A stretch of 64,000 bases of DNA from Gemmatimonadales bacterium (GTDB lineage Bacteria; Gemmatimonadota; Gemmatimonadetes; Gemmatimonadales; GWC2-71-9), in assembly GCA_019637315.1 (NCBI GenBank), contig JAHBVU010000001.1:248001-312000 (forward strand). Direction: 5' to 3'. Made by a program: the position numbers and the translations under genes. Positions within the stretch are counted from its first letter, which is position 1. The number at the start of each line of letters is the position of its first letter. Shown here in pieces: positions 8,666-42,090 of this stretch. The notes beneath the pieces were generated by a model. The model saw nothing but the letters and a program-made list of their open reading frames with translations, did not search any database and was not told where the DNA came from.

Positions 8666-10105
8666 ATGTTCTTTCGACGGATTGCCAACGACCATCTCTT
8701 CCAGTCAGGGTACCTGATCGGATGCCAGGCCAACGGGACGGCCCTGGTGGTCGACCCGACGCGTGTCATCGAACCCTATCTGGCGGTTGCGCGCCAGGAG
8801 GGTCTCGAGATCGTCGCGGTTGCGGACACCCACATCCACGCCGATTACGTCTCCGGTATCCGGGAACTGGCAGCCGCCACGGGTGCCCGGATGTACCTCA
8901 CGGGAGCCGGGCCAGCCGACTGGCAGTACGCCTTTCGCGGTGAAAGCAATGTGACCGTGATCGGAGACGGTGACACCATCACGATCGGGAACATCCGGGT
9001 GGTTGCGAAACACACACCCGGCCACACACCCGAGCACCTGAGCTTCCTGGTGACCGACGGCGCGGCGGCCGACGCCCCGATGGGCATCCTCACCGGCGAC
9101 TTCGTCTTCGTCGGCGATGTTGGTCGCCCTGACCTGCTGGAGCGCGCCGCGCATGTGGCCGGAACCGCTGAAGCAGGTGCGCACCAGTTGTTTCAGAGCT
9201 TGCAGTGGTTCAAGACGCTGCCGGATCACCTCCAGGTCTGGCCTGGCCACGGAGCAGGCTCTGCCTGTGGCAAGGGACTGGGAGCGGTACCACAGAGCAC
9301 GGTTGGGTACGAGCGCCGCTATAACTGGGCGCTCGGTACGGATGATGAGGCGCTGTTCGTTCGCCAGGTGCTCGCGGGTCAGCCTGAACCGCCCGGCTAT
9401 TTCGGGCGGATGAAGGTGATCAATCGTGACGGCCCGCCGGTGCTGGGAAGACTGCCCGAGCCACGCATCGTCACGGCTGCTGACCTTGCGAGCGAGGTTG
9501 CGGCCGGAAAGGGCGTGGTCGTGGATACCCGTCCTGCCGCGGTGTACGCCGCCGGACACATCCCGGGGTCGCTCAACCTGCCCCTCAACAAGAGCTTCAC
9601 CTCCTACGCAGGATCGGTGCTGTCCTACGACCGGCCCCTCTATTTCATCCTGGCTGAGGCCGGCCCCGAGTCGGTCCAGGCTCTGGTCGAGTCGCTCGTC
9701 GTCATCGGCTTCGAGCAGCTGGTCGGTGCGGCAGGGACCGCAGCGGTGTCCGAGTGGGCGGCAGAGCAAGGTGCGCTGGCGACGGCTTCACTGCAGGACA
9801 TCCAAAGCCTGCAAGGGGAGCAGAGTGGTGAGTCAGTGGTTCTCGATGTTCGGAATCGCCCGGAATGGGACGCGGGGCACCTCCCCGGTGCCCGCCTGAT
9901 CCCCCTCCCCGAGTTGACGGCGCGACTGGGCGAGTTGCCGAAGGATGTGCCGATTCGGGTACACTGCCAGTCGGGCGCCCGGTCGGCGGTGGCCGCCAGC
10001 GTGCTGCGTGCCAGCGGTTTTGCCGATGTCACGGATCTGAGCGGCGGCTTTCTGGCGTGGATGGCCCGCGGAGGAGCGGTCGAACGCGGTCGAGGCAACG
10101 CCTAG
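8666..10105 (+). CDS. MBL-fold persulfide dioxygenase-like protein fused to two rhodanese domains
   Basis: The ATG at 8666 was chosen over an earlier GTG inside the exporter gene because GGCAGGTAGG precedes it. The product is 479 residues. The metallo-beta-lactamase domain has THIHADYVSG (55-64), HTPGHTPEH, TGDFVFVGDVGRPDL and VWPGHGAGSACG, as in ETHE1-type sulfur dioxygenases, which oxidise glutathione persulfide to sulfite. Rhodanese domain 1 (about 270-360) has VVDTRPAAVYAAGHIPGS, but its active-loop position reads ILAEAGPES and has no Cys. Rhodanese domain 2 (about 375-470) keeps VHCQSGARS with the sulfur-accepting Cys. Domain 1 is probably structural. It is cotranscribed with the TSUP exporter. 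Confidence 0.92.
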   Translation: MFFRRIANDHLFQSGYLIGCQANGTALVVDPTRVIEPYLAVARQEGLEIVAVADTHIHADYVSGIRELAAATGARMYLTGAGPADWQYAFRGESNVTVIGDGDTITIGNIRVVAKHTPGHTPEHLSFLVTDGAAADAPMGILTGDFVFVGDVGRPDLLERAAHVAGTAEAGAHQLFQSLQWFKTLPDHLQVWPGHGAGSACGKGLGAVPQSTVGYERRYNWALGTDDEALFVRQVLAGQPEPPGYFGRMKVINRDGPPVLGRLPEPRIVTAADLASEVAAGKGVVVDTRPAAVYAAGHIPGSLNLPLNKSFTSYAGSVLSYDRPLYFILAEAGPESVQALVESLVVIGFEQLVGAAGTAAVSEWAAEQGALATASLQDIQSLQGEQSGESVVLDVRNRPEWDAGHLPGARLIPLPELTARLGELPKDVPIRVHCQSGARSAVAASVLRASGFADVTDLSGGFLAWMARGGAVERGRGNA

Positions 10106-28209: not shown

Positions 28210-30501
28210 GTGGCCTGGTCCCCTCTGTCGGTGCCCGAGCTGCTCGTCAAATACCCTGCTCGGGTCTTCGAGCAGGGGATCCTGGTGTGGCAGCATGCCG
28301 GGTGGCTCCGGATCCTGGCTCCTGTCACGCTGTTGTTGATTGCTTTCACGATTGCGGGGTACCTCAAGGCCGGGCGGGTTGGTCGGCTCGATCGGATCAT
28401 CCTGGCCACGGTGCGCAGCCTGGGGCTGCTTCTGGTGGCGCTCTGCTTGCTTCGTCCTGCCCTGCTGGTGTCGACCTCGCTTCCTCAGCAGAACATTCTC
28501 GGTATCGTCCTCGACGATTCGAAGAGCATGCAGATTCGGGATGTCGACGCCGGGACCAGACTCGAGCTGGTCCGGCAGCTCTTTGGCGACACCGAAGGTT
28601 CGCTGGTGCCGAGGCTTGCGGAGCGGTTCGCACTCCGGTTCTACCGCTTTTCCGAGACGCTCGAACGAATCGATGGCCCCTCCGCGCTGCGGGGCACCGG
28701 CAGTCGGACCGACCTGGCGACGGCACTCGGTGATGCCCGCCGGGACTTCGCCGGAGCGCCGCTAGCCGGGCTGATCGTTGCGACGGATGGCGCCGACAAC
28801 GCCGGACAGGCCATCAGTGATGCCCTGCTTGGCTTGCAGGCCGCGAAGATACCGGTCTACACCGTGGGTGTCGGGTCCGAGCGCTTCGCGCGCGATGTTG
28901 CCATTGACCGGATCGAGTTGCCGCACTCAACCCTCAAGGGTGCCGTGCTGGTGGGCTCCGTCTCGCTTCGCGCTCGCGGCGTGGCGGGAACGACGCTGGC
29001 GCTGGTGGTCGAGGACGGCAACAAGATCGTCGCCAATCAGGAGGTCGTGGTTCCCCGGGGGGCTGACGTTCTGACGGTGCCGATCCGCGTGCCGCCGCTC
29101 GAGGCGGGGGTGCGTGATATCCGTGTCTCGGTGCGTCCCGTCGACGGGGAAGTCCTGGCCCAGAACAACAGTCAGAACGCCAGGGTTGAAGTCCGCGATC
29201 GGCGAGAGAAGATTCTCTATGTCGAAGGCGGCATTCGCCCCGAATTTGCCTTCCTTCGCCGTGCGGCACAGAGCGACAGCAATTTGCAGGTGGTCGGCTT
29301 GCAGCGTACCGCCAAGGACAAGTACCTCCGGCTCGGTGTCGATGACAGTCTCGAGCTCATCAGCGGGTTCCCGACGACCCGGGCCGAGCTGTTCCGCTAT
29401 CGAGCGCTGATCCTGGGGAGCATCGAGGCTGCCTCGTTCACTGCCGACCAGCTGCGCATGATCGGCGAGTACGTCAGCGATCGCGGTGGCAGCCTGCTGG
29501 CGCTTGGTGGGCGTGCTGCGCTGGGCGAAGGGGCGTTCGAAGGCACTGCTCTGGCGGATGCCCTTCCCGTGACCTTCGTGAACCGAACAGCCGATTCGGC
29601 TGAGATCCCGATCGAGTTGCAGGTTCGACCGACCCCGGCCGGCTTCAGTAACGCGGCGCTCCTGCTGGCCGAGGACCCCGATGCGAATCGGACCCGGTGG
29701 GATTCGCTGCCTGCGCTGACCAGTGTGAATCGGACCACGGGTCTCAAGCCGGGTGCAACGGCGCTGCTCGACGGTCGGTCCGCCAACGGCGAAACCGTTC
29801 CGGTGCTGGCCTGGCATCGGTATGGTCGTGGGCGTGCCTTGGCCTTTCCGATTCAGGACAGCTGGCTCTGGCAGATGCACGCCTCGATTCCGGTCGAGGA
29901 TCAGACCCATGAAACACTCTGGCGGCAGCTGCTGCGCTGGATGCTGGAGGAGGTTCCCGACCGGACCGACCTCGCGATTGCTCCGAACTATCCTGCTCCT
30001 GGTGAGCGGACGACCATCCAGCTCGAGTTGACTGACTCTGCCTTCCGTCGTGTCAACGACGCCCAGGTGGAGGTTGAGGTCGTCGGGCCCGATGGCACGA
30101 CCCGGCAGGTTCCGCTGGAGTGGACCCTGGGACGGGATGGCCAGTACGCCGGCACCTTCGTTCCGACCGAGGAGGGGGAACATCTCCTGAGCGGTCAGGC
30201 CGTCATCGGCAGCGACACGGTTCGTCTGACGCCGACTTCACTCGGCGTGGCAGATCGCGGCGCGGATTTCGTCAATGCAGAGATGCGCAGCGTGCTGCTG
30301 CAGCGGGTGGCGCGTGAGACGGGCGGACGGTTCTACACGCAAGCGACCGTCGCCTCGCTTCCGGATGACGTGGTATTTACCGAGAGCGGTGTCACGATAC
30401 GTGAGGCCTTGGATCTCTGGGACATGCCGATCGTGCTGATCGGGCTGCTGGGTCTGCTCGGCTTCGAATGGGTTTACCGCCGGTATCGGGGGCTGATATG
30501 A
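28210..30501 (+). CDS. VWA-domain membrane protein, first gene of MoxR operon
   Basis: A GTG start with GAGGA eight bases upstream gives 763 residues. Two membrane spans (about 33-52 and 67-86) are followed by a von Willebrand A domain: ILGIVLDDSKSM gives the MIDAS DxSxS-like motif near 98-107 and LIVATDGADN the conserved TDG. Ig-like/CARDB-like beta regions follow. A class-I-glutaminase-like region (about 335-570) contains LILGSIEAASFTADQLRMIGEYVSDRGGSLLALGG, and one C-terminal span (about 738-757) ends the protein. Such proteins occur beside MoxR ATPases and are thought to be periplasmic or membrane clients or adapters. Its stop overlaps the next start by four bases. Confidence 0.87.
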   Translation: MAWSPLSVPELLVKYPARVFEQGILVWQHAGWLRILAPVTLLLIAFTIAGYLKAGRVGRLDRIILATVRSLGLLLVALCLLRPALLVSTSLPQQNILGIVLDDSKSMQIRDVDAGTRLELVRQLFGDTEGSLVPRLAERFALRFYRFSETLERIDGPSALRGTGSRTDLATALGDARRDFAGAPLAGLIVATDGADNAGQAISDALLGLQAAKIPVYTVGVGSERFARDVAIDRIELPHSTLKGAVLVGSVSLRARGVAGTTLALVVEDGNKIVANQEVVVPRGADVLTVPIRVPPLEAGVRDIRVSVRPVDGEVLAQNNSQNARVEVRDRREKILYVEGGIRPEFAFLRRAAQSDSNLQVVGLQRTAKDKYLRLGVDDSLELISGFPTTRAELFRYRALILGSIEAASFTADQLRMIGEYVSDRGGSLLALGGRAALGEGAFEGTALADALPVTFVNRTADSAEIPIELQVRPTPAGFSNAALLLAEDPDANRTRWDSLPALTSVNRTTGLKPGATALLDGRSANGETVPVLAWHRYGRGRALAFPIQDSWLWQMHASIPVEDQTHETLWRQLLRWMLEEVPDRTDLAIAPNYPAPGERTTIQLELTDSAFRRVNDAQVEVEVVGPDGTTRQVPLEWTLGRDGQYAGTFVPTEEGEHLLSGQAVIGSDTVRLTPTSLGVADRGADFVNAEMRSVLLQRVARETGGRFYTQATVASLPDDVVFTESGVTIREALDLWDMPIVLIGLLGLLGFEWVYRRYRGLI

Positions 30502-31460
30502 CGCAACTGATGCTGGCCCTGCTGCTCGGAACGGTTCAGCCCTCAGGCGAGGTGACCCAGCTCCTGGTGGTGACCGGCTTATCGGGTGAGCCGTCGTATG
30601 CCGCCATGCTGACCTCGCTCGGCCGCAGCATGGTTGCCGCAGCCAGGGAGCGGTGGGGCCTGGCCGATTCCAACATCATCTACCTGGCGGAACAGCATGC
30701 CCCCGCAGCCGGCACGACGGGCCGCTCCGATCGAGATGGCGTGATCGCGGCCGTATCCCGGCTGGCCGCTTCTGGCGGTGGGAACGGTGTCGTTGTCGTG
30801 CTGCTCGCCGGGCATGGCAGTGAGCAAGCCGGGGTCGCGCAGCTCAACTTGCCCGGACCGGACCTCACGGCACCGGATCTGGCGCTCGCGCTCCAGGCCT
30901 TTGGGCGCCGACGCGTGGTGGTCGTCAACGCGGCCAGTGCCAGTGGGGGGTTCCTCGGGCCGCTGGCGTCGCCTTCGCGAATCGTCATCACGGCAACGAA
31001 AACGGGCACCGAGCGCAACGCGACCCGGTTCGGCGAGTTCTTCGTCAAAGCGCTGACCAGTGACGAGGCGGACGCCGACAAGAACGGCCGGATTTCGCTG
31101 GCCGAAGCATACAGGTATGCCCGCCAGGAGGTGATCCGGTCGTACCAGTCGGCCCGCAGGTTGCTGACCGAGCATTCCCAGATCGACGACAATGGCAGCG
31201 GCACCGGCAGCGCCGAGCTTGCCGGCGCCGGTGGACGAGCTGCTGCGATCAGCGTGCCCCTCAAGGTCGAAGAACAGAGTACCGATCCGCGGGTAGCTCA
31301 GCTGCTGGCAGAGCGACGGCGGCTCGAGGCCGCCATCGCCGAGTTGCGCGGTCGAAAGGCGGCAACGGACTCGGTGGCATACGAACGAGAGCTCGAGCGG
31401 CTGGTCGTCGCCCTGGCGGAGACGAATCAGAGGATCCGTGCCGTACGGGGGTCCCCATGA
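30498..31460 (+). CDS. Caspase/legumain-like (C13/CD clan) protein with Ser in place of the catalytic Cys
   Basis: The ATG at 30498 overlaps the upstream stop, giving 320 residues with a short signal peptide. The alpha/beta core shows VVVVLLAGHGSEQ with the catalytic-type His at 106. The strand that should end in the nucleophile, VVVVNAASASGG, aligns with the family's ACxSG block, but Cys is replaced by Ser at 147. A perfect EF-hand loop (DADKNGRISLAE, 192-203) and an IDDNGSGTGS segment follow, as in secreted bacterial C13-like proteins. The C-terminal 60 residues form a basic coiled coil. It is probably a pseudoprotease or a Ser variant. It sits inside the MoxR operon, overlapped on both sides. 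Confidence 0.78.
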   Translation: MTQLMLALLLGTVQPSGEVTQLLVVTGLSGEPSYAAMLTSLGRSMVAAARERWGLADSNIIYLAEQHAPAAGTTGRSDRDGVIAAVSRLAASGGGNGVVVVLLAGHGSEQAGVAQLNLPGPDLTAPDLALALQAFGRRRVVVVNAASASGGFLGPLASPSRIVITATKTGTERNATRFGEFFVKALTSDEADADKNGRISLAEAYRYARQEVIRSYQSARRLLTEHSQIDDNGSGTGSAELAGAGGRAAAISVPLKVEEQSTDPRVAQLLAERRRLEAAIAELRGRKAATDSVAYERELERLVVALAETNQRIRAVRGSP

Positions 31461-33937
31461 TGGCGGTGCGTGGTCTTCGAATCGTCACCGGCATGATCGT
31501 GCTGGCGCTGGCCGTCACGACCTGCGCCGGCGACCGGAATCCGGCTCAGCGCTCCCCGCGCTGGCTGCTCGACCGAGGCGACGCCGAGGCGGCGATACAG
31601 CAGGCGGCTGGTACGCCGGGGGGGCAGCTGTGGATGGCAGAGGCGATGGCGCTCCGAGGGCGCCTGGTCGAGGCAGACCGGCACTTTGCCGAGGTCGCCG
31701 CGGCGGGCGGACCGAATGCAGCCCTGGCCGCGGCGCGGCGCGCAGAGGTGACGGCCCGGCGTGGCGACCGCAAAGAAGCGCTGCGCCAAGCCGATCGCCT
31801 TGCCACCACCCTCGAGCGCCGACCGGATCTGATGCCGGCCGACTGGTTGGCGCTGGGGCTGGCGTATCAGTTGCTGGGCAGCGAGCAGCCTGCGCAGTTC
31901 CGCGATGCCCTGACGGCGTTCGATCGCGCCATTGCGGCCGACTCGACACTGCTCGAAGCGCAGCTCAGACTTGGAGATCTCTTCCTCGACAAGTACAACG
32001 TTCCGGATGCGCGACGCAGCTACCAGCAGGTGCTGACTCGCGACCCGGACAACCCCCGTGCGCAGCTTGGCCTGGCGTTGGCCGGGCAGCTGGACGGCAG
32101 CCCGGGGAGCGGTGCGATGTTCGAAGGGGCGGTGCGGAGTGGCCCTGGCCTTGCCCTCACTCATGCTGCGCTTGCTCGCCTCGATCTCGATGCGGAATCG
32201 TTCGACTCTGCCCTAGTCCGTGCCGATCGCGCCATTGCGCTCGATTCTGCCGAGCAGCTCGGCTGGGCCGTGCGGGCCGCTGTCCAACTCGTTCGCGACG
32301 ACTCCGCCGGGTTTGCCGCAACGGAGGCGCGGTTGCGGTCACGCCAGGCCGCGCCGTCCGACTTCTATGCGCAGGCGGGTGAGGCCCTCGCGCGGCAGCG
32401 TCGCTATCGTGAGGCGGCCGACCTGGCGCGAAGGGGAGTGGCGCTCGACCCCGATCACCCGGCCGCGCTGACTACCCTCGGTACCAACGAGCTCCGGCTC
32501 GGCAGGATAGATACAGCCAGAGTGCACCTCGAGCGCGCGTTCCGCCGCGATCCGTATCACCTGTGGAACAAGAACACGCTGGATCTGCTGGACCGACTCG
32601 CAAACTTTCGCACGATTGGCTCGAATCGGATCCAGATCGTTGCACCTCCGGACGAGGCGGACCTGCTGGCGCTGTACCTCGTACCGCTGCTCGAGGCGGG
32701 GTATGACTCGCTCGCTGCGCGGTATCGCTACCACCCGCCCACGCCGATTCGTCTCGAGCTGTACGGCAGTCACGCCGACTTCTCGGTGCGCACGGTCGGG
32801 ATCGCCGGGCTCGGGGCGCTCGGGGTGAGTTTCGGCTCGGTGCTGGCCATGGATGCCCCTTCTGCACGCGACCCGGGCGACTTCAACTGGGCCTCGACCG
32901 CGTGGCATGAACTGGCGCACGCCTTTACCCTCGGAGCCACCGACCATCGGGTGCCCCGATGGTTGTCGGAAGGACTCTCTGTTCTGGAAGAGCGACGTGC
33001 CCGACCCGGCTGGGGAGCGCAGGCCAGCCCCGCGTACCTGGCGGCGCTGAAAGGCGGCCGGTTACGATCGGTGGGCACGCTGAATGATGGCTTCGTCCGG
33101 CCGCGGTACCCGGCTGAGATCGGGCTCTCGTACTATCACGCCTCGCTGTTGTGCGAGTACTTGGAGGCAACCTACGGGTTCGATGCCATTCTCGGTTTGC
33201 TCGACGGCTATCGGCGTGGCGTACCGACGGACGACGCGATTCGCGGGGCCACCGGAGTCTCGGTCGCGGAGGTCGACTCGCGCTTCAACGACTGGCTGGC
33301 ACAACGGTTTGCAACACCACTCAAGAGTGTCGCAGCGGTGCGCGATTCGGTCGCTGTTCCGGGAGAACTCGAGGCGCTGGTGGCGAGCGGCATCCGCCTT
33401 CGCGCCGCGGGTCAGCTCGACGAGGCTGTTTCCACCCTGGAGCGGGCCGATCGCATCTTTCCGGATATGGGTGTGGAGGATGGTCCCGCTTGGCATCTCG
33501 CCGAGATCCACCGCATGCGTGGCGACACCGCGCGTGCCATTGAGTACTTGAGTCGGGTAACCCGGTTCAACGACAGCCACTATGAGGCCAATCGTCGCGA
33601 GGCTGAGTTACGGGCTGGCCGAGGCGATGCGGCGGGGGCCCTTGCCGCACTCGAACGGGCTATTTACATCCACCCGTACGACCAGGCCCTTCACAGGCAA
33701 GCGGCTGAGCTCGCCGCTGCAGCCAAGGATCATGCGCGCGAGGTCCGGCAGCGGCGGGCTGTGGTTGCCCTGATGCCGACGGATCGGGCGGGCGCGTACT
33801 ACGCCCTCGCCCTCGCCTATCGCAACGCGGGTGACAACGTCTCGGCGCGTCGCGAGGTACTCCGAGCCCTCGAAGAGGCGCCGTCATACGAACCGGCGCA
33901 GCAGCTCCTGCTCGAGCTGCGAGGTGGGGCGCGATGA
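31457..33937 (+). CDS. TPR-repeat lipoprotein with MA-type metallopeptidase domain
   Basis: An 826-residue protein with a signal and probable lipidation at Cys about 23 (LAVTTCAGD). Residues 35-380 are a solenoid of TPR-like helices (for example ALTAFDRAIAADSTLLEAQLRLGDL). The middle domain (about 400-620) has HELAHAF at 484-490, the HExxH zinc site, then RWLSEGLSVLEERR with the third zinc ligand Glu, as in the peptidase MA/gluzincin family. More TPR units close the protein (about 640-826). It overlaps both neighbours by four bases. It is likely a periplasmic processing enzyme linked to the VWA/MoxR machine; substrate unknown. Confidence 0.9.
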   Translation: MMAVRGLRIVTGMIVLALAVTTCAGDRNPAQRSPRWLLDRGDAEAAIQQAAGTPGGQLWMAEAMALRGRLVEADRHFAEVAAAGGPNAALAAARRAEVTARRGDRKEALRQADRLATTLERRPDLMPADWLALGLAYQLLGSEQPAQFRDALTAFDRAIAADSTLLEAQLRLGDLFLDKYNVPDARRSYQQVLTRDPDNPRAQLGLALAGQLDGSPGSGAMFEGAVRSGPGLALTHAALARLDLDAESFDSALVRADRAIALDSAEQLGWAVRAAVQLVRDDSAGFAATEARLRSRQAAPSDFYAQAGEALARQRRYREAADLARRGVALDPDHPAALTTLGTNELRLGRIDTARVHLERAFRRDPYHLWNKNTLDLLDRLANFRTIGSNRIQIVAPPDEADLLALYLVPLLEAGYDSLAARYRYHPPTPIRLELYGSHADFSVRTVGIAGLGALGVSFGSVLAMDAPSARDPGDFNWASTAWHELAHAFTLGATDHRVPRWLSEGLSVLEERRARPGWGAQASPAYLAALKGGRLRSVGTLNDGFVRPRYPAEIGLSYYHASLLCEYLEATYGFDAILGLLDGYRRGVPTDDAIRGATGVSVAEVDSRFNDWLAQRFATPLKSVAAVRDSVAVPGELEALVASGIRLRAAGQLDEAVSTLERADRIFPDMGVEDGPAWHLAEIHRMRGDTARAIEYLSRVTRFNDSHYEANRREAELRAGRGDAAGALAALERAIYIHPYDQALHRQAAELAAAAKDHAREVRQRRAVVALMPTDRAGAYYALALAYRNAGDNVSARREVLRALEEAPSYEPAQQLLLELRGGAR

Positions 33938-34713
33938 GGCGAGTCTTACGCTGGCTCACCGGATTGGCCGCCGCGGCGCTGATCCTGGCCACGGCGGAAG
34001 CTCAGCGGCGGCGGGGAGGGGAGAGTGGTGCGTCGGAGTATCCGCCGAACGTGCCGTACGACGGCCGCTTCACCTTCGTGCGAATCCAGTACCAGCCTCG
34101 GGGTGGAGTCGGCGACTTCGGCTTCGGTCGAGGGGATCCGCGGTGGAATCACGACTATCCCCGTGCCGAGCGTCATTTCACCAGGATTCTTGCCGAACTG
34201 ACGACGGTGCGACCGCGGGTCGATGCGTCAAACATCATGACGCTCGATGATCCGGACCTGTTCAAGTTCCCGGTCGCCTATCTCTGTGAACCCGGCTTCT
34301 GGGTGCCAAACGATGCCGAGGTAGCGGCGCTCGGCGCGTACATCGCTAAAGGCGGGTTCTTGATCGTTGACGACTTTGCCGGGCGGCAGATCATCAACCT
34401 GCAGGAACAGCTTCGACGGGTGCTTCCCGAGGCCCGGATGCAGCCGATCCCGGTCGAGCATCCGGTCTTTGACTCGTTTTACCGGATTCGATCGTTCGAT
34501 CAATATGTCCACCCCTACCAGCAAGTCCAGACTGAGTTCCTTGGCATCTTCGAGGACAACGATCCCACCAAGCGCCTGATGGTGGCGATCAACTACAATG
34601 GTGACATCGCGGAGTACTGGGAGTACTCCGATACCGAGTGGTTCTCGGTCGACTTGTCGAACGAAGCGTACAAGCTCGGCATCAACTACATCGTCTATGC
34701 GCTCACCCGCTGA
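33934..34713 (+). CDS. DUF4159 secreted protein
   Basis: A 259-residue protein with a signal peptide (LTGLAAAALILATAEA). The mature protein shows FTFVRIQYQPR, DPRWNHDYPRAERHF, a LCEPGFWVPNDAEVAALGAYIAKGGFLIVDDF segment and MQPIPVEHPVFDSFYRI, the recognisable core of DUF4159, a GATase1-like fold. DUF4159 domains are often fused to BatA/VWA membrane proteins in other bacteria, so a stand-alone copy in this operon fits. The glutaminase-type catalytic Cys is absent, so a binding role is likely. Confidence 0.9.
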   Translation: MRRVLRWLTGLAAAALILATAEAQRRRGGESGASEYPPNVPYDGRFTFVRIQYQPRGGVGDFGFGRGDPRWNHDYPRAERHFTRILAELTTVRPRVDASNIMTLDDPDLFKFPVAYLCEPGFWVPNDAEVAALGAYIAKGGFLIVDDFAGRQIINLQEQLRRVLPEARMQPIPVEHPVFDSFYRIRSFDQYVHPYQQVQTEFLGIFEDNDPTKRLMVAINYNGDIAEYWEYSDTEWFSVDLSNEAYKLGINYIVYALTR

Positions 34714-34725
34714 TCGAGGTCCCGC

Positions 34726-35760
34726 GTGACTCTGACAACACCAACTATCGGATCGGATTCGGACGATCGCATCGTCGCGGATCGATTGCATGCCGCGGCG
34801 GGCCGGATCAGGACCGAGCTCGCCAAGCGAATCATCGGACAGGAGCCGGTCGTCGAGCAGTGCCTGATTGCGCTGCTGTCGGGCGGGAACTGCCTGCTGG
34901 TTGGCGTTCCCGGTCTGGCCAAGACCCTGCTGGTGCAGACGCTGGCTGAAGTGCTGGATCTGTCCTTTCAGCGGATTCAGTTCACGCCCGACCTGATGCC
35001 ATCGGATGTGACGGGAACAGACGTGATCCAGGACGACCCCGCTACCGGGCAGCGTCGACTCGTCTTCATGCGAGGACCCGTCTTTGCCAACGTCGTGCTG
35101 GCCGACGAGATCAACCGAACGCCGCCGAAAACTCAGGCGGCCCTGCTCGAGGCCATGCAGGAGCGGCGGGTGACTGTTCAGGGCAAGACCTATCCGCTCG
35201 ATCCACCCTTTCACGTCTTCGCAACTCAGAACCCCATCGAGCTCGAGGGAACCTATCCGCTGCCTGAGGCACAGCTCGATCGATTCCTCTTCGAGGTCGT
35301 GCTCGATCACCTGTCCGAGGCCGACGAGATCCGGGTCGCCCGACTGACCACCGGAGTCCAGGGCGGATCGCTCGATCGAGTCGTTTCGGGTGCGGATCTC
35401 GTCCGGTTCCAGCACCTGGTTCGTCGCGTTCCGGTTGCCGATCCGGTCGTCGACTACGCCGTACGTCTCGTGCGGATGAGTCGACCGGCCGATCCGGATG
35501 CGCCGGCCTTCGTTCGGCAGTGGGTTTCCTACGGAGCGAGTGTGCGTGCCGCACAGGCCCTGCTGCTCGGTGCGAAGTCGAAGGCCCTGCTCGACGGCCG
35601 CGCCCACGTCGGGTTCGAGGACATTCGTTTCCTGGCGCGTCCGGTGCTTCGGCATCGTCTCCTGCTCAACTTCCAGGCCCGGGCCGAGCGGGTCACGACA
35701 GACAGTGTCATCGAGCAACTCGTCGCGGCGGTGCCGGCACCGCGATCCGGGATGGCCTGA
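34726..35760 (+). CDS. MoxR-family AAA+ ATPase
   Basis: A GTG start gives 344 residues. Walker A is GVPGLAKT (60-67), Walker B is VLADEINRTPPKTQAALLEAMQERRVT (about 125-150), sensor 1 is FATQNPIELEGTYPLPEAQLDRF (Asn near 167), and the lid domain carries RAAQALLLGAKSKALLDGR near 275. This is the MRP-type MoxR that works as a chaperone with VWA proteins encoded beside it. Its stop overlaps the DUF58 start by one base. The operon encodes at least three VWA-fold proteins that could be partners. Confidence 0.97.
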   Translation: MTLTTPTIGSDSDDRIVADRLHAAAGRIRTELAKRIIGQEPVVEQCLIALLSGGNCLLVGVPGLAKTLLVQTLAEVLDLSFQRIQFTPDLMPSDVTGTDVIQDDPATGQRRLVFMRGPVFANVVLADEINRTPPKTQAALLEAMQERRVTVQGKTYPLDPPFHVFATQNPIELEGTYPLPEAQLDRFLFEVVLDHLSEADEIRVARLTTGVQGGSLDRVVSGADLVRFQHLVRRVPVADPVVDYAVRLVRMSRPADPDAPAFVRQWVSYGASVRAAQALLLGAKSKALLDGRAHVGFEDIRFLARPVLRHRLLLNFQARAERVTTDSVIEQLVAAVPAPRSGMA

Positions 35761-36656
35761 TGACAGTGTTGCCCGGCCTGCTCGATCCCGTCGTGCTGGC
35801 TCGCATCGGCGATCTCTCGCTGATTGCGCGGACCGTGGTCGACGGGTTCATGCATGGCTTGCACCGGGCGCCGCGGCTGGGTCATTCGACCGAGTTTGCC
35901 GAGCATCGGTCGTATCAGCCGGGCGACGACCTCAGGCGGCTCGACTGGCGAGTCTATGGTCGGACCGATCGGTACTACATCAAAGAGTATGAGGCAGACA
36001 CGAACGTGTCGGTCTTGCTCGCGCTCGATCTGTCGAAGTCGATGGCGTTTGGTTCTGCCGGCGTGACCAAGCTCGACTACGCCAGGATGCTGGTGGCTGC
36101 GCTGGCGTGGTTCTCGCAGCGCCAGGGCGACCGGATCGGCCTCGTGCTGTACACCGACCGGGTTGTCCGCTACGTGCCGCCCTCGACGCGCCATCTCTGG
36201 CTGGTCCTGCATGAGCTGGCGAACGCGTCACCCGCAGGGTCCGGCAGCGGCATCGAGGCCAACCCGGCCATCAACGAACTGCTCGGTCGTGGAGGCATTA
36301 CGGTCTTCGTGTCCGACTGGTACGCGCCGCCCGAGGCCGTTACCGGTGCGCTTGGCGGCGTCCGTGTACGTGGGCACGACGTGATTGCCATTCATGTCAT
36401 GGACCCCGCGGAACAAAGTTTTCCGTACAGCGAGGCCGCCAGCTTCGAAGATCTGGAGTCGGGCGAGCGCATCTCGCTTTCTCCCGAACGTCTGCGCCCC
36501 GCCTACCGGGCGGCCTATGACGAGCACCTGGCCCAGCTGCAGACGCTGCTGACCCGATCGAGCGTCGACTATGCGCGGGTAGCAACCTCGGAACCGCTCG
36601 ATCGCGCGTTGTACCGCTACTTGCATCAGCGTGAAGCGCTGGGACGGGTTCGCTGA
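35760..36656 (+). CDS. DUF58 (VWA-like) protein
   Basis: The ATG at 35760 overlaps the MoxR stop and gives 298 residues; a longer frame upstream runs through the ATPase gene and is not coding. The DUF58 signature is clear: SLIARTVVDGFMHGLHRAPRLGHSTEFAEHRSYQPGDDLRRLDWRVYGRTDR. It is followed by a VWA-like core with LLALDLSKSMAFG (MIDAS-like DxSxS) and DRIGLVLYTD. No membrane span, so it should be cytosolic next to MoxR. MoxR-DUF58 pairs are the conserved heart of this type of cluster. Confidence 0.95.
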   Translation: MTVLPGLLDPVVLARIGDLSLIARTVVDGFMHGLHRAPRLGHSTEFAEHRSYQPGDDLRRLDWRVYGRTDRYYIKEYEADTNVSVLLALDLSKSMAFGSAGVTKLDYARMLVAALAWFSQRQGDRIGLVLYTDRVVRYVPPSTRHLWLVLHELANASPAGSGSGIEANPAINELLGRGGITVFVSDWYAPPEAVTGALGGVRVRGHDVIAIHVMDPAEQSFPYSEAASFEDLESGERISLSPERLRPAYRAAYDEHLAQLQTLLTRSSVDYARVATSEPLDRALYRYLHQREALGRVR

Positions 36657-36658
36657 TC

Positions 36659-38701
36659 GTGGGACTCGGCTGGCTGGTGCCGGCGCTGCTGGCAGGGTTG
36701 GCAGCCATCCTGGTGCCTGTGCTGGTGCACCTGCGCCAGCGCGAACGGCGCGATCCGATCGCGTTTCCGTCGCTGATGTTCCTGCGCCAGGTCCCCAGCC
36801 GCACGGCGGAGCGGCGCCGGATCACGCACCCGCTGCTATTGCTGCTCCGCGCCCTGGCGGTTGCGGCTCTGGTGGCCGCGTTTGCCCGGCCGTTCTGGCG
36901 CCAGGCCGATCCGAGCCCGGCAGCAGGCAAGGTGGCTCGGACCCTGATCGTGGCGGTGGATCGCTCCCTCAGTATGGGATATCGCGGCGTCTGGGAGCGG
37001 GCCCAGGACTCGATCGGTGCTGTGCTAAGTACGCTCGGTTCGGGCGACCAGGCCGCGCTGATTGCCTTCGACGACGCGGCGGAAGTGCTCGCTCGACCGA
37101 GTGCAGACCTGGCCGGCCTTCGCGGTCTGGTCGTCTCGTTGACGCCCGGTTCAGGCAGGAGTCGGATTGGTCCCGCGATTCGGGTAGCGCGTGACCTGGC
37201 AGCCGAAGCGCGAGGCTCCGCCATCGAAGTCGTGGTCGTGTCCGATCTGCAGCGGCACGCGCTGGCGGGCCTCGAATCGGTGGAGCGTATTCCCGGAGCG
37301 GCCATGCGATTCATCTCGGTCGCAGAGTCGGATCCCGTCAACGCACGAGTCGTACAAGTCGAGGTCGATCGCCGCACCGAGGGCCGTCGGACCCGACTGA
37401 CCGTCAGTGCCCCGATCGCGTCGAAGGGAGCCGCTGGGCGCAGCACCCGGGCCACCCTGCTCGTCAACGGTCGGGAGCTGGCGTCCACCCAGGTGACGTT
37501 GAGCGCGTCCGGCATGACGACCGCCAGCTTCGATCCGGTCTGGATTGCCGAGGGTGATGGCATCGCAGCGGTAGCGCTGGAACCCGACGCCCTCGCGGCC
37601 GACGATACGCTCCGGTTCTCGCTGACCGCCGCGGCCGGCGTGCCCGTCCTGCTGCTCGTCCCGCCAGGTACGCCTGCAGAGGAGGCCGTCTTCCTCGAGC
37701 GCGCCTTGATGATCAATCGCTCGCCGGCGCTGGCCATTACGGTGCGACGGAGCGCTACGCCCTCGGCTGCAGACCTTGGCCAGAGCCAAGTGGTGGTCGT
37801 GGTCGACGGTGGTGGTGTGTCGCCGGCGGGAATGGCGGCACTGCGCGGCTTCACCGAACGCGGCGGCGGCGTGGTCCTTGGTGCTGGCAGGTCCGCATTT
37901 CGGGGAGATGCTGGCTGGCTCCCGGCAACGATCGGCGGTACGATCGACCGCATGAACGACCGGGGCGGCCGTCTCGGCCAGCTCGACGGCGATCATCCAG
38001 TCTTCGAGCCCTTCAAAGAGGCGCTGTCCCGAGACTTCGGCGCGGCGCGGTTCTTTCGCTATCGCGACCTTACGGCCGACTCGTCCGCTCAAGTCGTGGC
38101 CCGCTTCGACGACGGCAGGCCCGCTCTGATCGACGGCAGCTCCGGAGCCGGTCGCGTGGTGGTCTCGGCTCTGGCCGTGGGCACTCTCTGGTCTGACTTC
38201 GCGCTTCAACCTGTATTTCTCCCGCTGATGCAGCAGCTCGTATCCCATGTCGGACAACTTCGGGAAGAGAAGCGGTGGTATACAGCCGGCGAAGCGGCTG
38301 CGATTCCCCAGGACACTCGGGCGCTCACACTGATCGACCCCTCCGGCGGAAGCCAGCGAATCGCGGCGGACAGTAACCGAACGGTCATCCTGCCCGCGAT
38401 CGGCTTCTATCAGTTGCGGAGCGATCTCGCCGCCGTGCCGGTAGCTCAGCTGGCGGTGAACCCGGCGCCGGAGGAATCGGAGCTGACCTCCGTGACGCCA
38501 GCCGATGCCCTGGCTCAATTGCGGGCTCCAACGGACTCGGCCGCGGCGCCGACGGTTGCGCCGCTTACGGCCGTCGAGCAGGAGCGGCGCCAGTCCTGGT
38601 GGAGCATTCTCCTCATCCTGGCGTTTCTGGCGCTCGGAGCCGAAACTCTATACACGGTTCGCGCGGCTCGGCGCGTCCGGGAGACGGGAGGTGGTGCATG
38701 A
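36659..38701 (+). CDS. BatA-like VWA membrane protein
   Basis: A GTG start gives 680 residues. The N-terminal BatA domain reads LVPALLAGLAAILVPVLVHLRQRERRDPIAFPSLMFL, then a second span, LLLLLRALAVAALVAAFARPFW. The VWA domain has LIVAVDRSLSMGYRG (MIDAS DxSxS) and QAALIAFDDAAEVL. A beta-rich and GATase-like region (about 330-610) includes VVVDGGGVSPAGMAALRGFTERGGGVVLGAG. A final span (about 648-666) closes it. In aerotolerance and related operons BatA partners MoxR; here it follows directly after DUF58. Confidence 0.93.
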   Translation: MGLGWLVPALLAGLAAILVPVLVHLRQRERRDPIAFPSLMFLRQVPSRTAERRRITHPLLLLLRALAVAALVAAFARPFWRQADPSPAAGKVARTLIVAVDRSLSMGYRGVWERAQDSIGAVLSTLGSGDQAALIAFDDAAEVLARPSADLAGLRGLVVSLTPGSGRSRIGPAIRVARDLAAEARGSAIEVVVVSDLQRHALAGLESVERIPGAAMRFISVAESDPVNARVVQVEVDRRTEGRRTRLTVSAPIASKGAAGRSTRATLLVNGRELASTQVTLSASGMTTASFDPVWIAEGDGIAAVALEPDALAADDTLRFSLTAAAGVPVLLLVPPGTPAEEAVFLERALMINRSPALAITVRRSATPSAADLGQSQVVVVVDGGGVSPAGMAALRGFTERGGGVVLGAGRSAFRGDAGWLPATIGGTIDRMNDRGGRLGQLDGDHPVFEPFKEALSRDFGAARFFRYRDLTADSSAQVVARFDDGRPALIDGSSGAGRVVVSALAVGTLWSDFALQPVFLPLMQQLVSHVGQLREEKRWYTAGEAAAIPQDTRALTLIDPSGGSQRIAADSNRTVILPAIGFYQLRSDLAAVPVAQLAVNPAPEESELTSVTPADALAQLRAPTDSAAAPTVAPLTAVEQERRQSWWSILLILAFLALGAETLYTVRAARRVRETGGGA

Positions 38702-41700
38702 CCGACCGAGACCACATTCACACAGCCCTCGATGGCATCCGGGCTCGCTGGCGCCGTCGCCTGGCGTTGGAGTCGCTAGTCGTGCTGGCCGTCGTGATCG
38801 CATTGCTCGTCGTTGCCGTCGGCCTGGCTTGGGGGTCGATTCGCGAGCACGAGACCACAGTTCGGACGGCGCGCTGGCTGGCTGGATTGGTCGTGGCAGT
38901 CACGGCGCTGCTCCTGATGCGACGCTGGTCGAGGCGTCGTCCTTCATCGGCTCAGGTCGCCTTGTACGTCGAGGAGCGCTCGCCCGCTCTTCGGGCCGCC
39001 CTGCTCAGCTCTGTTACGGTTGAGACTGATCCGAATGCTTCGCCGGGGTTGGCGGAACGGGTCTTTGCGGCTGCCCGACGCGGCTTGGCATCGATCGACG
39101 ACGGCCGCCACCTGGAACGCGATCAAGTGCGGCGGGCGGCGGGCCGTTTCGGTGGAGTGATTCTGGCGTCGGCCGCCCTGCTGGCTTTTGGCCCGACCGG
39201 TTTTCGCGACGCGACCCTGAGCTTGCTCAACCCCTGGCGACCGATACCGCGGGCGCCGGTATTCTCGGTTGATGTTCTTCCCGGCAACGCCGAGGTGCCG
39301 AGAGGCGGAGCCGTCGACGTAGCGGCTCAGTTGGGCGGCTTCACCAGCCCGGCAGCCGAACTGGTGTTTCGGATCGACTCCACCGGGGAATGGGAGCGCC
39401 TTCCCATGACGCAGGACACGGTGCTCGGTCGGTTCACGTCGCGCCTGTTCGATGTCGACGGGCCGGTCGACTACTTCGTAGAGTCTGAAGGGGTCCGCTC
39501 GTCGGCGTTCCGCCTCACCGTCGTTGACCTTCCTGCAGTGCGCAGCGTCTCGGCCACCATCGATCCTCCCGGGTACACCGGCCTTCCGGTCGAGTCGGTC
39601 GAAGCGGTTGGTGACCTTGCCGTGCTGACTGGCAGCGTCGTGCGGCTCAGTGCGCAGCCGACCCGATCGGCGCGGGCCGCATTCCTGGTGGTTGAGGGTC
39701 GTCCGCCCGAGGCAATGGCGATTGGTTCCGACGGCGCCTGGAACGGGACGGTGCGGGTCGGGGCAGACCTCTTCTGGCGAATCGACCTGGTGGCCGATGA
39801 CGGGCGTCGGATCACAGGGCTGCAATACGCCATCGACGCACTGGACGATACACCGCCGACGGTTCGGTTTGCCGCGCCGGGTCGGGACACCAAGCCGACC
39901 TCGATCGAAGAGGTTACCGCCCAGGTCGAAGCATTCGACGATTTCGGCGTTCGCCGCCTGCTGCTGCACGTCAGCGTCAACGGCGCCGAGCCGACGACAC
40001 ATGTCCTGTCCGACACTACCGTACGCGCGCTGCGCGACCTCGCGGCTGCGCACACCTTCTTTCTCGAGGAATGGTCGCTCCAGCCGGGTGATCTCGTGTC
40101 CTACCATGCGGAGGCGATTGACGGCGCGGGACAGTCCGGTGTGAGTGACATGTACTTCCTGGAAATCCGTCCCTTCGACCGAAGCTACCGTGAAGCGGAG
40201 CAGAGCGGCATGCCTGGCGGTGGCGGCGGTGGCGAGGAGCCGGATGGATTGGCTGAGCGTCAGCGCCTCATCGTGGTGGGAACCTTCAATGTCACCCGCG
40301 ACAGTGCGGCTGATGCACGAAGCTATCGCGAGAATCTCACGACCCTGGCTATCGGCGAGGGGCGGATCCGTCAGGATGTTGCGGAGCTGCGTCGCCGCAT
40401 GGCGCAGCGTGGTATGGCGCGGGTGGATTCGACGTTCGTCCTGATCGGTGAGGCGCTCGACTCCGCAGCGGTTCACCTTCAAGAGGCCGAGGAACGTTTG
40501 GGGCGCCATCGCCCTCGGGCGGCGCTGCCCCCGGCGCAGCAGGCGCTGACCCACCTTCAGCGGGCCGAGGCTGCCTATCGGGAGGTGCAGGTTTCCCGGG
40601 GTAATCAGCAGGGCGGCGGCGGAGGCGGCGGGCAGCAGCGGAACGCCGAGGAACTGGCAGACCTCTTCGAGCTGGAAACGGATCGATTGCAGAACCAGTA
40701 CGAGGCCATGCCGCAGGATCAGGGCGCCGAGGCTGAGCGGACCCTCGACGAAACGGCAGAGCGACTTCGACGACTGGCAGCTCGGCAGCAGCAGGAGAAC
40801 GAGCGGATGGCGCGGATGGCAGACGCGTTGCGCAATCGCTCGGCGCAGGGTGGTGGGCGCAGCAATGCGCAGCGCCAGCTGGCGGACGAAACGCAGGAAG
40901 CGGCCCGGCAGCTCGAACGCCTGGCGAGAGAGCGGCAGGACCAGGGCATGGCAGACGCGGCCCGTCGGCTGCGCGAGGCGGCAGACCAGATGAGGCGCGC
41001 TGCCGGGACCGATCCGCAGTCGGCGCCCGGCCAGGGCAACGAGGCGCTGGAGCAGCTGCGCGACGCGGCTCGGCAGCTCGAACGCTCACGGTCGGAGAGC
41101 CGGCAGGACGAAATTCGTCGGCTCGAAGCGCGTGCCGAGGCCTTGCGGCAGCGACAGCGCGAAACAGCCGAGCAGGCCACCTCGCTCCCGGCAGATCCGA
41201 CCGAACGCCGCCGCCGCGCCGCCGCGCTGAGCGAGCGGAAAGAAGAGATGGCCCGTGACGCAGAGCAGCTTGCTGCGGATGCCGATCGTCTGTCGAAGGA
41301 CGCGGCCAGGGAGCAGCCGGCCGCCGCCCGCAAGCTGGCCGAAGCCGCTGAGGGTATGCGCACCGATCGGGTCGGTGACAAGTTGCGATTCTCTCAGAGC
41401 TTGCTGCAGCGCGGGTCGCAGGAGTATGTCCGGCAGTTCGAAGAACAGATTGCCGAGAACCTGGCGGATGCGGCGGGGCGGCTCAGGGAGGCCTCACGAA
41501 GCCTCGGTCAGGCCGAGGGCAGCCGGGAGAACCGCGCCATGGAGCGGGCGCGGGATCTGGTGCGCGGGCTCGAGTCGCTCAACGAACGGGCCCGGGCCGA
41601 GCAGCGCCGCGGTCAGGGCAGTCAGGCGTCGGGGGCGCCAGCGCCGGGTGAAGCGCGGGACCCCAGCTCGGCCGAGGCCGCTCCGTCCCAAGGAGGGGCT

Positions 41701-42090
41701 CGGAACGGCACTCCCGATGGAGCCGATGGCAGACCGGGCCGGCAGTTTGCGCGTGAGCTGCGCGCCAGGCGCCAGGCTGCCGATTCGCTGCGGGCGGATC
41801 TTCGCGCGCTCGGTGAGGAGACGGCGCCGCTGGATCGGGTGCTGCAGGGGTTCCGCCAATTCGAAGATCAGCAGAGCTTCGACGACCCGGCGGCGCTGGA
41901 TCGACTGGAACGAGACCTGATTGCAGGCCTCAAGGAGATCGAGTTTGCGCTCTGGCGCCGGTTCGGCAGCGATGGAGGCCAGCGTCCGGCGGCGGGCGCC
42001 ACCGCTCGAGTCCCGCCCCAGTATCGAGAACTGGTCGAGGAGTACTACCGGGCGCTTGCCAGACAGCGTCCCAGCCCGGCTCAACCCTAG
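38698..42090 (+). CDS. DUF4175-like large membrane protein with long charged coiled coil
   Basis: The ATG at 38698 overlaps the BatA stop; 1130 residues. Three N-terminal spans (about 22-43, 58-77 and 140-160) precede a beta-rich domain (about 185-490) that looks Ig-like. A poly-Gly stretch near 504-510 is followed by a very long, Gln/Glu/Arg-rich helical region (about 525-1090) with a second poly-Gly hinge near 635 and repeated AARQLERLARER-type heptads. The C-terminus ends near YRELVEEYYRALARQRP. The layout matches DUF4175 proteins, whose role is unknown. It is the last and largest gene of the operon and could form a long periplasmic stalk. Confidence 0.82.
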   Translation: MTDRDHIHTALDGIRARWRRRLALESLVVLAVVIALLVVAVGLAWGSIREHETTVRTARWLAGLVVAVTALLLMRRWSRRRPSSAQVALYVEERSPALRAALLSSVTVETDPNASPGLAERVFAAARRGLASIDDGRHLERDQVRRAAGRFGGVILASAALLAFGPTGFRDATLSLLNPWRPIPRAPVFSVDVLPGNAEVPRGGAVDVAAQLGGFTSPAAELVFRIDSTGEWERLPMTQDTVLGRFTSRLFDVDGPVDYFVESEGVRSSAFRLTVVDLPAVRSVSATIDPPGYTGLPVESVEAVGDLAVLTGSVVRLSAQPTRSARAAFLVVEGRPPEAMAIGSDGAWNGTVRVGADLFWRIDLVADDGRRITGLQYAIDALDDTPPTVRFAAPGRDTKPTSIEEVTAQVEAFDDFGVRRLLLHVSVNGAEPTTHVLSDTTVRALRDLAAAHTFFLEEWSLQPGDLVSYHAEAIDGAGQSGVSDMYFLEIRPFDRSYREAEQSGMPGGGGGGEEPDGLAERQRLIVVGTFNVTRDSAADARSYRENLTTLAIGEGRIRQDVAELRRRMAQRGMARVDSTFVLIGEALDSAAVHLQEAEERLGRHRPRAALPPAQQALTHLQRAEAAYREVQVSRGNQQGGGGGGGQQRNAEELADLFELETDRLQNQYEAMPQDQGAEAERTLDETAERLRRLAARQQQENERMARMADALRNRSAQGGGRSNAQRQLADETQEAARQLERLARERQDQGMADAARRLREAADQMRRAAGTDPQSAPGQGNEALEQLRDAARQLERSRSESRQDEIRRLEARAEALRQRQRETAEQATSLPADPTERRRRAAALSERKEEMARDAEQLAADADRLSKDAAREQPAAARKLAEAAEGMRTDRVGDKLRFSQSLLQRGSQEYVRQFEEQIAENLADAAGRLREASRSLGQAEGSRENRAMERARDLVRGLESLNERARAEQRRGQGSQASGAPAPGEARDPSSAEAAPSQGGARNGTPDGADGRPGRQFARELRARRQAADSLRADLRALGEETAPLDRVLQGFRQFEDQQSFDDPAALDRLERDLIAGLKEIEFALWRRFGSDGGQRPAAGATARVPPQYRELVEEYYRALARQRPSPAQP

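Follow-up and report, generated by a model that had tools for sequence, protein, structure and literature searches.

A 64,000-nucleotide stretch of the genome of a Gemmatimonadales bacterium (hereafter, the window) encodes a protein, here called pseudo-C13, that is predicted to adopt a legumain-like fold and that has lost the catalytic cysteine. Known bacterial caspase-fold pseudoproteases are mainly C14 relatives, commonly with the histidine changed as well as the cysteine; the family described here is a separate, C13-like one that occurs in the two phyla sampled, keeps the catalytic histidine invariantly, lacks the cysteine throughout, and is associated with a single partner gene as well as with a MoxR operon. 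What function could such a protein serve? In our judgment, it is probably an exported, non-proteolytic subunit of a MoxR/VWA envelope machine, in which it would act in binding, as an adaptor, or in ligand sensing. The analysis names a definite partner and mutable residues, and it could help to explain the role of the BatA/DUF58/DUF4175 MoxR operons.

The pseudo-C13 gene occupies positions 30498–31460 of the forward strand and encodes 320 amino acids plus a stop codon, an assignment based on the open reading frame and its translation, the Pfam C13 match, an AlphaFold2 model, and a fold search of the PDB. Re-reading the sequence, we found the reading frame, the coordinates, and all of the residues named in the preliminary description to be correct. 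The start codon overlaps the stop codon of the upstream gene (ATGA, 30498–30501), and the downstream gene, starting at 31457, overlaps the stop codon of pseudo-C13; because of these overlaps, the translational coupling that had been proposed is plausible on both sides of the gene. Promoter and terminator scans yielded no signal exceeding that of shuffled sequence. Judging from its leader, the protein is probably exported and acts outside the cytoplasmic membrane. This N-terminal hydrophobic segment, a possible export signal read from the sequence (30498–30554, forward strand), is weak in the window protein, where a basic residue is absent at its start; a simple rule identified a leader in 98 of 117 curated homologues. 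In the remaining 19, that rule detected no clear leader, partly because of guessed start codons, which were themselves picked by rule. At the other terminus, residues 264–317 (31287–31448, forward strand) form a helical hairpin, with helices at 264–285 and 292–317 in the AlphaFold2/DSSP assignment.

Three approaches were used to assign the fold. The Pfam C13 model (PF01650) matches residues 94–215 with a score of 23.5 bits, only marginally over its gathering score of 22.8; at E 0.1, it also matches 24 of 58 homologues. The AlphaFold2 model (58 sequences) has a pLDDT of 91.3 and a pTM of 0.82. When this model was compared to the PDB using Foldseek, active legumain (4awb, E 3.1e-07) was the top match; other legumains came next and, after them, the GPI transamidase subunit, metacaspases, and caspases. 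The TM-scores are moderate (0.4–0.5 by query length), and the extra C-terminal hairpin of the model probably contributes to this. A sequence-based search of the PDB with the family profile found metacaspases, aligned up to the GHG region. Together, the Pfam match, the model, and its resemblance to legumain bear out the caspase/legumain-like fold of the preliminary description, and place the protein, marginally by Pfam score, among the C13 homologues. The Pfam p20 model does not place it among the C14 orthocaspases or pseudo-orthocaspases: Peptidase_C14 failed to match the window protein at E 1 and matched just one of 58 homologues (E 0.014). Two other candidate relationships were discarded. 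A distant PDB match to tannase (E 0.006) was attributed to chance, as it vanished with the family profile, for which metacaspases ranked first; a match of the C-terminal helices to chorismate mutase was rejected (15.8 vs. 69.55 bits).

The preliminary description held that the catalytic histidine is intact and that a serine replaces the nucleophilic cysteine. Residues 146–150 of the window protein read A-S-A-S-G, and His106 (codon 30813–30815, forward strand) lies within a G-H-G motif, such that the glycine preceding the catalytic histidine of active C13 peptidases (G105) is present. We aligned the family with five Cys-type C13/C14-like proteins (Pfam C13 or C14) from the same two phyla (L121, L122, L123, L125, and L171). 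The profile-profile comparison (99.5% probability, E 1.1e-22) placed NAASASGGF over FQQCYGGGF, with Ser147 (AGT, 30936–30938, forward strand) on the cysteine, His106 on the histidine, and the EH segment (225–226) on the EHP of the Cys-type relatives. Single HMM alignments agreed. Among the 117 curated members, position 147 is serine in 100, threonine in 9, glutamate in 3, and aspartate, proline, alanine, glycine, or asparagine in one each; it is never cysteine, the residue that the His-Cys dyad of an active C13 peptidase requires. His106, by comparison, is invariant (117/117). The window protein contains no cysteine whatsoever, and thus another cysteine cannot be the nucleophile. Both claims of the preliminary description therefore stand. 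The neighboring Ser149-Gly150 (30942–30947, forward strand; S149 in 114 of 117 members) is shared with the C-x-S-G motifs of most Cys-type relatives and is probably structural. In an acidobacterial-labeled subgroup (L092–L103 and L108), Gly150 is changed to phenylalanine or alanine (A-S-F-P-F), and most of the non-hydroxyl residues at 147 fall within this subgroup.

How widespread and how old is this substitution? A protein search returned matches in 78 of the 150 Gemmatimonadota genomes sampled, including a spurious one (G113) and a fragmentary one (G124). A scan of genome contigs found a single relative, in an Acidobacteria-labeled MAG, which led to the examination of a second phylum; there, a profile search matched 66 of 199 genomes, of which the weak matches were rejected as distant caspase-like proteins. 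A Pfam C13 search of 61 Gemmatimonadota genomes recovered few Cys-type members and mostly missed the divergent pseudo-C13 family. The reading frames of the family are nearly all intact, and dN/dS in close pairs is about 0.07–0.21. Given the family-wide absence of the cysteine at position 147 and these low ratios, the protein is under selection and, on comparative grounds, has stably lacked the cysteine for a long time.

The preliminary description also pointed to a canonical calcium-binding loop, and the residues on which that rested (D192, D194, N196, G197, I199, and E203) are all present. The 12-residue segment D192–E203 (DADKNGRISLAE; 31071–31106, forward strand) is well conserved: D192 and E203 each occur in 117 of 117 members, as does D/N at 194, with D/N/S at 196 and S/T/N at 200; E225 is likewise conserved (117/117). 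The segment D192–E203 conforms to the EF-hand loop pattern (D at position 1, D/N at positions 3 and 5, and E at position 12). The Pfam EF-hand models scored below their cut-offs for the window protein (11.4–11.6 vs. 25.4–25.9 bits), and no helix directly precedes the loop in the AlphaFold2 model, the preceding helix ending at 187, four residues ahead. The loop is not, however, peculiar to the window protein: a D-x-N/D-x-D-G...E segment is also found in Cys-type bacterial C13/C14 relatives, so it appears to be an inherited trait of the wider C13-like family rather than specific evidence for sensing or for a new sensor. Bound calcium may stabilize the fold in both groups of proteins.

Directly upstream of the pseudo-C13 gene lies the gene for a VWA/GATase-like protein (28210–30501), and downstream are those for a TPR protein with a Peptidase_MA_2 domain (31457–33937; Pfam and sequence), a DUF4159 protein (33934–34713; Pfam, E 3.9e-46), a MoxR-type AAA+ ATPase (34726–35760; Pfam AAA_3, E 1.7e-61), a DUF58 protein (35757–36656, start codon approximate; Pfam, E 2e-51), a BatA/VWA membrane protein (36659–38701; Pfam BatA and VWA_2), and a DUF4175 protein (38692–42090, start codon approximate; Pfam, E 6.4e-08), all on the forward strand. 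In the upstream protein, Pfam calls a GATase1_like domain (31 bits) and no VWA domain; its MIDAS-type motif (DDSKS) was read from the sequence, and the D-x-S-x-S pattern is kept in this neighbor at nearly all loci. Its domains lie between N-terminal and C-terminal hydrophobic segments, by our reading of the sequence, and it thus appears to be membrane-anchored. No nucleophilic cysteine is present in the GATase-like segment, which reads GGRAALG in the window; the operon therefore combines two enzyme folds, each without the catalytic cysteine. The TPR protein retains an intact metallopeptidase motif (HExxH, here HELAH) and has a possible lipoprotein leader; its gene is absent from several loci that retain the C13-like gene.

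In a survey of 40 loci from both phyla, the pseudo-C13 gene was directly 3' of the VWA/GATase-like gene in 37, and MoxR was detected within the fetched stretch in 34, in agreement with the MoxR-operon context described earlier; the usual setting is a MoxR-DUF58-BatA-DUF4175 cluster. At two further loci (L157 and L162), other cluster genes are present and the fetched stretch begins at a contig end. Strong VWA/GATase-like matches (E below 1e-80) occur in 76 genomes, 74 of which have the C13-like gene; reciprocally, 74 of 76 genomes with a strong C13-like match have a strong VWA/GATase-like match. Among the four exceptions, G092, G142, and G146 are at contig edges; the fourth is G120. In a same-genus genome, G132, a fusion scar links residues 14–57, from the beginning of the VWA/GATase-like gene, with residues 1099–1128, from the end of the DUF4175 gene, so the cassette running from the first of these genes to the last was lost as a block. 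At this scar, located at about 9198–9403 of locus L170 (G132:C7:109000-128900), the two remnants are in different reading frames. The preliminary description suggested a sensor or adaptor; the near-strict co-occurrence with the VWA/GATase-like gene fits such a role, although the calcium loop lends sensing no specific support.

These observations can be assembled into a model. In an ancestor with the legumain/caspase fold, the catalytic cysteine would have been replaced, mostly by serine, before the family radiated in the two phyla. A binding module would have been retained, comprising the fold, His106, the calcium-type loop, the C-terminal hairpin, and conserved residues beside the old substrate cleft. 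The protein would form a periplasmic complex with the neighboring VWA/GATase-like membrane protein, the most economical arrangement given the hydrophobic leader of most homologues and the apparent membrane anchoring of the partner. Within this complex, the C13-like fold might bind a ligand or a protein segment in the old substrate cleft, and the VWA protein might hold or release the C13-like fold. MoxR would remodel the assembly, as has been proposed generally for MoxR-VWA pairs (PMC7159879), with the BatA and DUF4175 membrane proteins as candidate links between the cytoplasmic ATPase and the periplasmic complex.

Is pseudo-C13 truly devoid of peptidase activity? The preliminary description left the choice between a catalytically dead regulator and a protein that uses the serine. 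We infer that a dead protein is favored: position 147 lacks a hydroxyl in eight members, a tree built without the motif columns requires at least four changes between hydroxyl and no hydroxyl, and His106 remains constant throughout. This constancy of the histidine, set against the occasional loss of the hydroxyl, points to a role for the histidine in binding or in structure. Against this reading, serine or threonine at 147 in 93% of members together with an invariant histidine is equally expected of a Ser-His enzyme, and dead proteases do not usually keep the histidine invariant; it is mostly lost in the pseudo-orthocaspases published so far (PMC6426788). A hydrolase with a dyad of Ser147 (Thr in some) and His106 on the clan CD scaffold, cleaving an envelope peptide, ester, or amide perhaps with the aid of calcium, is an alternative that we regard as unlikely. 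It is favored by the hydroxyl in 109 of 117 members, by the stronger conservation of 147 than of its direct neighbors 145, 146, and 148, and by purifying selection; it has difficulty with the E, D, P, A, G, or N found there beside an intact His106, with the rank of 147 in conservation (52nd of 302 columns), and with the description of MEROPS clan CD as Cys peptidases with a His-Cys dyad (PMC12445089). The fuller version of this idea, in which a clan CD family switched from a cysteine to a serine (or threonine) nucleophile and the resulting Ser-His hydrolase, possibly calcium-dependent, operates in a MoxR/VWA envelope complex, strikes us as rather improbable. If Ser147 did prove to be catalytic, the caspase/legumain fold would include a hydrolase of the Ser type, and clan CD would no longer be Cys-only.

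A different partner might also be envisioned. As a pseudoprotease regulating the adjacent TPR-metallopeptidase, perhaps by inhibiting it or by serving as a substrate adaptor, pseudo-C13 would sit directly beside its target in the window and at most loci, and the HExxH motif of the window copy is intact; nonetheless, several loci (among them L138, L145, L146, L149, and L150) have pseudo-C13 with the VWA/GATase-like gene and no metallopeptidase detected nearby. These loci make the VWA/GATase-like protein the more constant partner, and we give regulation of the metallopeptidase a small chance. We are very doubtful that the active site was rearranged around another nucleophile. Ser149 is nearly invariant, but it corresponds to the serine of the C-x-S-G motifs in Cys-type relatives and so is itself likely structural; a cysteine at 148 (S/T-C-S-G), which could be functional or reflect a register shift, is present in only four members, all acidobacterial (L088, L091, L098, and L109). 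Finally, the missing cysteine could mean that the gene is decaying into a pseudogene or that the sequence of this genome contains an artefact, a notion that is barely credible: it is refuted at the level of the family, where the cysteine is replaced in every member, nearly all frames are open, and dN/dS lies well below 1.

The favored reading, an inactive binding subunit, can be set against known proteins. Like legumain and its family (C13; PF01650, MEROPS clan CD), pseudo-C13 has the predicted fold, the GHG histidine, and the pocket-side segment after the next strand; unlike legumain, it has no catalytic cysteine, a C-terminal helical hairpin replaces the prodomain, and it possesses the calcium-type loop and resides in a bacterial operon with MoxR genes. 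The Cys-type C13/C14-like proteins are homologous over residues of about 21–240, including the loop and the EH segment, but they carry the cysteine, most have extra domains or extensions, and they fall outside the operon family. The published surveys deal with C14. Its bacterial pseudo-orthocaspases (PF00656 p20 without the His-Cys dyad) have serine at the cysteine position and are presumed inactive; Tyr-Ser dyads predominate among them, as do alphaproteobacterial and cyanobacterial sources (PMC6426788). Pseudo-C13 shares with them a predicted caspase fold and the serine; in contrast, its histidine is invariant, its nearest Pfam family is C13, and it occurs in other phyla. An older survey listed a single putative metacaspase from Gemmatimonadetes, in which the dyad was not intact (PMC3501461). 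A cysteine-to-serine change also characterizes metacaspase 4 (MCA4) of Trypanosoma brucei, a functional pseudopeptidase (cited in PMC7475262); MCA4 is a single eukaryotic metacaspase, whereas pseudo-C13 is a bacterial operon component.

At the level of the operon, the closest parallel is with the MoxR-vWA ternary conflict systems (Kaur et al. 2020), which combine MoxR AAA+ and VWA proteins and have caspase-like effector domains (PMC7159879); the pseudo-C13 operon similarly pairs a MoxR AAA+ ATPase, VWA proteins, and a caspase-like fold. The gene set differs, being BatA/DUF58/DUF4175/DUF4159 plus the VWA/GATase-like protein. By Pfam, the third component of the ternary systems (VMAP, iSTAND, FtsH, or beta-propeller) was absent from the seven neighboring operon proteins, and PADLOC had no match in six operon proteins. 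Within the library of papers searched, none pairs the phrases Peptidase C13 and MoxR.

With regard to mobile elements, no relative was found in the viral contigs searched, and the only match among plasmids was on a Gemmatirosa megaplasmid. This copy (L053, G079:C3:744142-751049), on the 1.1-Mb plasmid of Gemmatirosa kalamazoonensis (NZ_CP007129.1), matches in two overlapping frames, which suggests a frameshift or a sequencing error.
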